A stretch of 29,170 bases of DNA from positions 1 to 29,170 of the IMG/VR virus record IMGVR_UViG_3300032223_001156; one strand, given 5' to 3'. The DNA is from a virus. The position numbers and the translations under genes were made by a program. Positions 23,570-25,440 of the stretch are shown piece after piece. Below the pieces are notes generated by a model. It saw only the letters and a program-made list of their open reading frames with translations. It searched no databases and was not told the origin of the DNA. Positions within the stretch are counted from its first letter, which is position 1. Each line of letters opens with the position of its first letter.

Positions 23570-24136
23570 ATGAATATTGCAAACGGAAATTCAATACAAA
23601 CAATAAAAACATATGTGGAAGATAGAAAGGGCCTTCAAAGATCTAACAGATTTGATGTTCAAATTTATAACATACCAGCAAATATCGGACGTGTAAATTT
23701 TATGGCACAGCAAGTTGATCTCGGACCAAGAACAATAGAAACGGTAGCAGACAATCTACAAGGTTATGGATTAGGGCGTACAGTTCCCAGAAGTCAAACT
23801 TTAATAAAACAATTTGGTGTTCAATTAACATTTCCCGTAACCAATGATAATCAAATTTTAAAAGTCTTTAATAGTTGGTTTAACTATTTTTATGCAAATA
23901 CAAATGCAGGTGGATTTGGATATTTTTCACAATATTACGATAAAGCAGTATATAATACTCAAATGGTTGTAAGAACATTAGATCCAAATGGCGGTGTTAA
24001 CAATACAATGACTTTTTATGAAGTCTTTCCAGTTGAATCACAACCTATGACTATGAGCATGTTAAAACCCGACATGTATATGTCATATACCGTTGTATTG
24101 GCATATAGATATTATAGACAAGATTTCTATAAGTGA
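23570..24136 (+). CDS. Tail-tube-fold baseplate protein, candidate gp54
   Basis: 188 aa. The N-terminal G-L-Q-R-S-N-R-F-D-V-Q-I resembles the N-R-F start of tube proteins. F-M-A-Q-Q-V-D-L-G-P-R-T, a G-R-T-V-P-R-S segment, F-G-V-Q-L-T-F-P-V with the helix V-F-N-S-W-F-N-Y-F, and closing strands Y-E-V-F-P-V followed by Y-T-V-V-L-A-Y-R-Y-Y follow the tube-fold order. It lies between gp4 and a gp26-like hub chaperone and near gp48, the context for a tube initiator such as gp54, though T4 gp54 is 320 aa and no direct match is visible. It is the fourth tube-fold protein in this window. Confidence 0.68.
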   Translation: MNIANGNSIQTIKTYVEDRKGLQRSNRFDVQIYNIPANIGRVNFMAQQVDLGPRTIETVADNLQGYGLGRTVPRSQTLIKQFGVQLTFPVTNDNQILKVFNSWFNYFYANTNAGGFGYFSQYYDKAVYNTQMVVRTLDPNGGVNNTMTFYEVFPVESQPMTMSMLKPDMYMSYTVVLAYRYYRQDFYK

Positions 24137-24141
24137 TTATT

Positions 24142-24807
24142 ATGGATAATATAACAAATACATTAAAAAATTTACTACCTCAATATGAATGTTTTTTGCC
24201 TTTTGCAAATAAAAAAGTATTTTACACACCATTTAGAGTAAAAGATGCAAAAAATATATCAATCATATTACAAGAAAATAATAAAAATTTAATATTAAAT
24301 AGTTTATATGATATTTTAACATCAAATACAAAAGATGTGAATATAGATGATTTATGTTTAGCAGATGCCGAATATTTGTTTTTGAACATACGATCAAAAA
24401 GCATAGATGAACAAATATCTGTAAAAATAAATGGTGTATCAACTAAAATAAACATACCAGATATAAAATTTAGAAATAAACCAATAGATGAGAATATTGT
24501 TTTAGATTCTGGAGCAGTATTGAGAATAAAATCACCAACACTAAAAGATTTAAAAAATTGTGATTTTAATGATTCTCAAGCCATATTAAAAAAATCTATA
24601 GAATCTATTACAATTCATAATGAAATATATCATTTAAATAAATTTTTAAACAATCAAGCACAACAGATAATAGATAATCTCCCTCTTTCATTTTTATCTG
24701 AAATGAAGAAAATATCAAAAAAAGAACCAGAACTTTATGTAACGATACAATCCGAAGAAGGGGAGAGTGAGGTGTCTGGTATCCTAAATTTTTTTACTTA
24801 TCAATGA
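24142..24807 (+). CDS. 26: gp26-like baseplate hub assembly chaperone
   Basis: 221 aa from ATG 24142 (T4 gp26 is 208). The N-terminus L-P-Q-Y-E-C-F-L-P-F-A-N-K-K-V-F-Y-T-P-F-R-V-K-D, then L-C-L-A-D-A-E-Y-L-F-L-N-I-R-S-K-S, are typical of this family of hub assembly factors; they resemble tail-assembly chaperones of other phages. An in-frame GTG at 24133 overlapping the previous stop (GTGA) would add three residues; neither start has a good ribosome binding site. Codons 216-218 (AAT TTT TTT) form the heptamer T TTT TTT at 24789-24795, and a -1 slip there enters the next ORF without meeting a stop. The gene overlaps that ORF by ATGA. Confidence 0.75.
   Translation: MDNITNTLKNLLPQYECFLPFANKKVFYTPFRVKDAKNISIILQENNKNLILNSLYDILTSNTKDVNIDDLCLADAEYLFLNIRSKSIDEQISVKINGVSTKINIPDIKFRNKPIDENIVLDSGAVLRIKSPTLKDLKNCDFNDSQAILKKSIESITIHNEIYHLNKFLNNQAQQIIDNLPLSFLSEMKKISKKEPELYVTIQSEEGESEVSGILNFFTYQ
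24789..24795 (+). promoter_or_regulatory. Candidate -1 ribosomal frameshift site T TTT TTT
   Basis: Seven T residues are read in frame as AAT TTT TTT ACT, the X XXY YYZ form. A -1 slip continues TAC TTA TCA ATG, joining the 63-aa ORF in frame. The fusion would be 218 + 3 + 63 = 284 residues. No clear downstream stem-loop is seen. Confidence 0.5.
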
Positions 24808-24995
24808 GTTTTTTTGATTTGAAAGATTATTATCAAACAAATTTCAATTTAATAAACTCACATAAATGGTCATTGCAAGATTTGGAAAATATGCTGTTTT
24901 GGGAAAGAGAAATATATGTAAATCTCTTGGCCGATTATAATCAAAAAATGTTAGAGAAAAAACAATCAAACTTCAGGCATCACTCAATGATGTAA
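24804..24995 (+). CDS. 63-aa ORF, possible second domain of a frameshifted chaperone (gp51 slot)
   Basis: Starts in an ATGA overlap with the gp26-like gene. The sequence W-S-L-Q-D-L-E-N-M-L-F-W-E-R-E-I-Y-V-N-L-L resembles the W-x-x-x-E-(I/L)-x-x-(M/L)-x-(F/W)-x-E-R pattern common in the second reading frame of tail-assembly chaperones (the T part of G-GT). It ends in a basic tail. It may be made in two ways: from its own ATG by coupling, or as the C-terminal end of a -1 frameshift product. In T4 the comparable factor would be gp51, but no direct match is claimed. Confidence 0.68.
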   Translation: MSFFDLKDYYQTNFNLINSHKWSLQDLENMLFWEREIYVNLLADYNQKMLEKKQSNFRHHSMM

Positions 24996-24999
24996 TACA

Positions 25000-25440
25000 A
25001 TGAATATAGAAAATAATAATGTTGAATTAGATATTGCTGCAGAAAAATTAGCTCTCAATTCCTTAATTGAAGAAAACATAGATGAAGAGCCAAGAGCAAT
25101 TATTGAATCTATATCAGAAAATTTAAATAATCAGATAGAATTAAATTCTCATGTTGATTCTGCAGATGTTATGGCTGAGGTTATGCAATCACCTCAAGTA
25201 ATATCTCAAGTAATAAACAATGAAGAAACAATCACAAAAAGTGATTTAGAAAATGCAAAAAAAGATATAGAAAACTCATTAAAACCAGTATTCGACCAAA
25301 TGAATGAAAATATTTCATCAATGTCAACCACTGATAGAAATCCAAAAAGATTTACAGAACAAAGACCAACATATTCATTAGATGGATTAATTTTTAGTGA
25401 TAGAATGACGCAAATAACAAATCCACCGGAGTGGTTATGA
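25000..25440 (+). CDS. Unknown acidic helical protein (146 aa)
   Basis: Not recognised. It is strongly acidic, with Asn, Glu and Ser abundant, and residues about 10-100 are predicted by eye to be mostly helical with heptad-like Leu/Ile/Val spacing. The C-terminal 35 residues change character (R-N-P-K-R-F-T-E-Q-R-P, then T-Y-S-L-D-G-L-I-F and T-N-P-P-E-W-L) and look like a peptide that could dock on another protein. It is the last gene of the gp4 operon, starting five bases after the 63-aa ORF, and ends at a strong terminator. A tail or assembly role is inferred only from the operon. Confidence 0.8.
   Translation: MNIENNNVELDIAAEKLALNSLIEENIDEEPRAIIESISENLNNQIELNSHVDSADVMAEVMQSPQVISQVINNEETITKSDLENAKKDIENSLKPVFDQMNENISSMSTTDRNPKRFTEQRPTYSLDGLIFSDRMTQITNPPEWL

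Follow-up and report, generated by a model that had tools for sequence, protein, structure and literature searches.

A 2016 review describes G-T frameshifting as a feature that long-tailed phages widely share, 'except T4' (PMC5009743). Two later papers (PMC10885494, PMC12846349) credit Vladimirov, Gautam and Davidson (Virology 566:9-15, 2022) with identifying the tail assembly chaperones of T4-like phages, with gp26 as TAC-N and gp51 as TAC-NC, and a two-gene solution in which a short gene is accompanied by a fused long copy in some of these phages; poly-T slippery sequences in the TAC-N genes of T4-like phages are also credited to that work, as cited in PMC12846349. The annotation of Acinetobacter phage Meroveus designates gp26 and gp51 as tape measure protein assembly chaperones. 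In view of this annotation and of the 2022 work as cited, the idea of frameshifting in T4-like chaperones must be regarded as already known, and the arrangement considered here appears to have been described for T4-like phages. The start-less gp51 copies, the stimulators upstream and downstream of the slippery site and the missing annotations may be new.

The window, by which we mean the whole 29,170-nucleotide stretch of the viral record IMGVR_UViG_3300032223_001156, carries the same families (PF12322, phrog_150 and phrog_634) as the T4-like chaperones that the citing papers ascribe to Vladimirov et al. T4 encodes the short and long forms separately, one on each strand and lacking a slippery site, whereas the window has what reads as a single frameshifting unit. 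Lambda gpG/gpGT and P2 E/E' resemble the window both in pairing a short protein with a minor -1 product bearing a C-terminal extension and in their location downstream of the tail tube gene (PMC5009743). The systems differ in that family scans found no sequence similarity between the lambda and P2 chaperones and those of the window, and in that the next gene in the window is a 146-aa ORF rather than an identified tape measure gene. The slippery heptamer of lambda, GGGAAAG, is also different from the T TTT TTT of the window. Phage Adele, compared by description, offers a further parallel at the TAC locus of Vandenendeviridae/Andersonviridae: a poly-T slippery site lies at the 3' end of TAC-N, as in the window, and annotators often treat the -1 open extension as intergenic or as a gene in its own right, although the motif is GTTTTT and the phage family another one (PMC12846349).

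The gp26-like gene and the gp51-like extension

The gp26-like gene, the putative short form (TAC-N), occupies 24142..24807 on the plus strand and encodes 221 aa from ATG 24142, with an in-frame GTG at 24133 as an alternative start. It lies directly downstream of a tail-tube-like gene (23570..24136, plus strand; phrog_45 tail tube, 1.7e-12). In profile searches its product matched PF12322 (T4_baseplate) at 2e-23 over profile positions 2-218 of 219 and phrog_150 (baseplate hub) at 5.5e-23, matches that identify the gene upstream of the junction as a gp26 homologue. Alignments were needed for searching IMG/VR, where a single-sequence query with the window's gp26 gave zero matches. The AlphaFold2 model of this protein (pLDDT 91.8) has the same order of elements as the model of a T4-type gp51 (pLDDT 84.7), which adds helices after approximately residue 205. 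Foldseek returned 49 matches in BFVD at E<=1e-3, many of them named baseplate hub subunit and reaching down to the T4-type gp51 of ZZ1. Against the PDB it gave no significant tail chaperone match, the HK97 gp13 tail chaperone (2ob9_B) appearing at rank 27 with E 2.7, probability 0.16 and TMt 0.36, and sequence searches of solved structures yielded chance matches only.

The 63-aa ORF (24804..24995, plus strand) would form the C-terminal part of the long form (TAC-NC). It matched phrog_634, baseplate hub assembly catalyst, at 1.6e-17 over profile positions 62-115 of 121, and tblastn paired it with cyanophage gp51; by this similarity we identify it as the gp51 of cyanophages. On its 3' side it is adjoined by the 146-aa ORF (25000-25440), for which profile searches gave no significant family match. 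In several relatives, too, gp51 is followed first by a small ORF and then by a large unassigned one, a possible tape measure gene; profile searches did not recognise these large downstream ORFs as tape measure.

Reading frames at the junction and their conservation

In the window the zero frame reads AAT TTT TTT ACT TAT CAA TGA, from AAT at 24787 to the stop codon at 24805, and the -1 frame reads TTT TTT TAC TTA TCA ATG AGT. The candidate slippery heptamer T TTT TTT (24789..24795, plus strand) thus has the phase X XXY YYZ, and the -1 frame, open over 24771..24995 on the plus strand, would be entered by a slipped ribosome at the heptamer and left at the gp51 stop. From these letters an earlier note had read a T run in phase with the gp26-like gene, a -1 slip giving FF-YLS-M into the 63-aa ORF, a fusion of 284 aa and an ATGA overlap of the gp26 stop with ATG 24804 at the start of that ORF; each is borne out by the window sequence, the fusion consisting of 218 plus 66 residues. 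The same note had pointed to a second T7 run at 24809-24815. The run exists but is not conserved (in L097 the corresponding sequence is ATATTTTGAT), and it was rejected as another slip site, a -1 slip there meeting TGA immediately. An overlapping candidate, A AAT TTT (24786..24792, plus strand), would shift ribosomes into the same frame as T TTT TTT, with K replacing N at the first slipped codon; a comparison of the preceding codons indicated that it is not generally kept in relatives.

A heptamer by itself is weak evidence, because in-frame XXXYYYZ heptamers of any type are common in the window's ORFs; in-frame T TTT TTN itself is rare, with 9 instances among their 9,497 codons. It is the comparison with relatives, comprising 11 annotated phage regions and 160 IMG/VR loci, that settles the question. 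The earlier note had proposed asking whether relatives lose the T run or its register, and the outcome favours its reading: relative to gp26, gp51 is in the -1 register at 168 of the 169 loci that yielded both genes, and T TTT TTN stands in phase at 154 of 155 non-identical gp26/gp51 junctions (TTTTTTC 136, TTTTTTT 15, TTTTTTA 2, TTTTTTG 1), as well as in 46 of 47 representatives below 60% identity. The end of the heptamer falls 3 nt before the zero-frame stop in 134 of the junctions. The same arrangement recurs in 15 named phages of several families, with phiM9, 65.2, OLIVR6 and Aeh1 all having T TTT TTN plus a -1 extension.

The junction in which the heptamer is absent, L088, reads TCG TTT TTT TAA (G TTT TTT) at approximately 1470-1484, with no heptamer in phase; its gp51 keeps the -1 frame and has no start codon. 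L055 was considered as an exception to the register and rejected as such, because a frame break disrupts the region of its best gp26 match; the junction there is GAAAGTTTTTTCGGCTAA, and gp51 is shifted by -1 relative to the frame ending ESFFG.

On the combined strength of these sequence comparisons, we regard it as very probable that, in this T4-like phage, the 63-aa ORF belongs to one expression unit with the gp26-like gene, in which -1 slippage by a minority of ribosomes yields the long form. The principal alternative, which we consider highly improbable, is that gp51 is a separate 63-aa protein, initiated at ATG 24804 by translational coupling over the ATGA overlap, and that the T run merely represents two Phe codons. 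The overlap does exist in the window, an ATG is found somewhere in the right frame in 99 of the 155 junctions, and databases annotate gp51 as a gene of its own. However, several of those records (Melnitz, Mosig) put the start within the conserved domain, and 38 of the 155 junctions offer gp51 no ATG, GTG or TTG in its frame upstream of Asn13, a conserved residue of the gp51 domain. In these 38, gp51 is reachable by ordinary decoding only via a -1 shift; without frameshifting, an unusual start codon would be required, and starts such as ATT are possible in the start-less relatives. The start-less copies include L093 and L097, among the closest relatives of the window; in another near relative, L094, the sole usual start is a TTG two codons past the heptamer, and an ATG is available in L013. 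A gp51 in the -1 register with no independent start is consequently a feature of the family and only partly of the window, whose copy has its own ATG and may additionally use a coupled start at 24804.

Two further observations stand against a separate gp51. The residues from the slip to the annotated start align with T4 gp51, in which they are in frame, and codon choice at the heptamer is far off background. All 46 heptamer-bearing representatives below 60% identity use TTT for the first Phe codon (background 69%, P ~4e-8) and end the preceding codon in T (P ~1e-10), P values that ignore residual kinship.

Transcriptional slippage on the T7 run as the source of the long form is more improbable still: there are seven Ts in the window, and TTTTTTT in 15 of the 155 junctions, but 136 have T TTT TTC with just six Ts, fewer than the run lengths known to cause polymerase slippage, and three hallmarks of ribosomal frameshifting are present: a conserved phase, an SD-like motif and downstream structure.

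Under ribosomal frameshifting, the majority of ribosomes would follow the gp26 frame to TGA 24805 and release the 221-aa short form, while a minority would slip into the -1 frame at T TTT TTT and translate the gp51 extension as well, producing the 284-aa long form. If lambda G/GT is a guide, both forms would assemble together on the tape measure protein, with the extension recruiting tube or hub components during tail assembly. The comparison establishes that the heptamer, its phase and the -1 register are conserved, that many relatives have start-less gp51 copies and that the fused product would be homologous to T4 gp51. From these we infer a -1 frameshift site with high confidence; that slippage occurs, at what rate, and with which role in assembly are likewise matters that we infer.

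Candidate stimulators of the shift

An SD-like motif, GAGGTG (24769..24774, plus strand; a 6-nt match), lies 14 nt upstream of the heptamer and is a possible frameshift stimulator. SD-like matches ending 6-13 nt upstream of the heptamer were found in 65% of representatives versus 19% of control sites. The motifs of the relatives are of the GGAGG type and end approximately 10 nt before the heptamer, so that of the window is farther upstream than their commonest spacing. In the LEG motif that carries the SD-like match, GAG is preferred over GAA (p = 1.7e-5).

On the downstream side, the earlier note had seen no obvious stem-loop. A hairpin is in fact predicted at 24805..24860 (plus strand), starting 9 nt past the heptamer with the outer stem TGAGTTT/AAACTCA and a folding energy of -11.0 kcal/mol, but the hairpin is not clearly better than shuffled sequences (z -1.45; 19 of 200 shuffles as good) and alone is not significant. 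In the relatives, RNA just 3' of the heptamer is more stable than its shuffled counterparts, the mean z over offsets 0 to +16 being -1.1 to -1.4 versus approximately -0.3 (mostly -0.1 to -0.4) for flanking RNA. Pairing of the SD-like motif upstream and the hairpin downstream probably assist slippage.

T4 gp26 and gp51 and the two schemes

The plus strand of T4 carries gene 51, the minus strand gene 26. Both products match PF12322, gp26 (208 aa) at 8.8e-64 and gp51 (249 aa) at 3.9e-52; within gp51 the PF12322 domain spans residues 1-201, and residues 147-246 match phrog_634. In the alignment, gp26 ends where the frameshift-type short form ends and gp51 continues into the extension. Since gp51 possesses a gp26-like domain with the extension in frame, T4 gp51 corresponds to the long form and gp26 to the short form. 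The likeness to the G/GT-type architecture that the earlier note had proposed is upheld by the heptamer, register and start-codon counts among the relatives. Its comparison with T4 needs amending: T4 gp26 and gp51 do not correspond to the two parts of the fusion, gp51 having both domains. The link that the note had proposed between the two schemes appears already to be in the literature (Vladimirov et al. 2022, as cited in PMC10885494 and PMC12846349). As read from the sequences, some T4-like phages have two genes, and the window and many others frameshift.

In an unrooted tree of the shared domain, a single branch (99/99) separates frameshift-type from two-gene-type copies, and the long-form copies group together (100/100); the short two-gene copies have long branches and an uncertain placement. 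The tree allows an ancestral-frameshift reading and does not itself give the direction. We assign roughly even chances to the proposal that an SD-like GGAGG some 10 nt upstream, T TTT TTY and a downstream stem were the ancestral and obligatory route to the long chaperone across the T4 supergroup, which T4 would have replaced by gene duplication with the extension fixed in frame.

Other arrangements of these genes were also seen. In Klebsiella phage phiKp_12 (L176, 1501-2795) the long form and a gp26-like short form are in tandem on one strand with a 4-nt overlap, in contrast to the opposite strands of T4. The family profile of gp28, phrog_1140, matches T4 gp26 weakly (9e-4; T4 gene 28 at 7849-8382 of L173), and gp28 may be a third, distant relative. 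In Acinetobacter phage ZZ1 (L174, approximately 1501-2255) the long-form gp51 is broken over two frames near an early poly-T/FFF, and the annotated gp51 starts late; recoding was rejected as the cause, the break being far from the junction and a sequencing error more likely.

In the literature, Aeh1 is the only T4-like phage said to have no gp51, and the gp51 of cyanophages is described as missing approximately 200 N-terminal residues (PMC3037559). Both reports would make sense if what is called gp51 were the -1 portion of a longer product. In Aeromonas phage Aeh1 (L192), whose gp51 the 2010 comparative study counts as missing, an unannotated gp51 is present at 1501-1677, in the -1 frame behind GAT TTT TTC. 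Many records of cyanophages and Aeromonas phages, including Aeh1, 65.2, S-WAM1 and P-RSM3, omit gp51 or give it a wrong start, and annotation as a joined frameshift product is called for in such records. Frameshifting of the G/GT type would be widespread among T4-like phages, in contrast to the 'except T4' of the 2016 review (PMC5009743). The T4 pair, for its part, presents the short and long forms as two separately controllable genes, by which the idea of a stoichiometry between them becomes testable.
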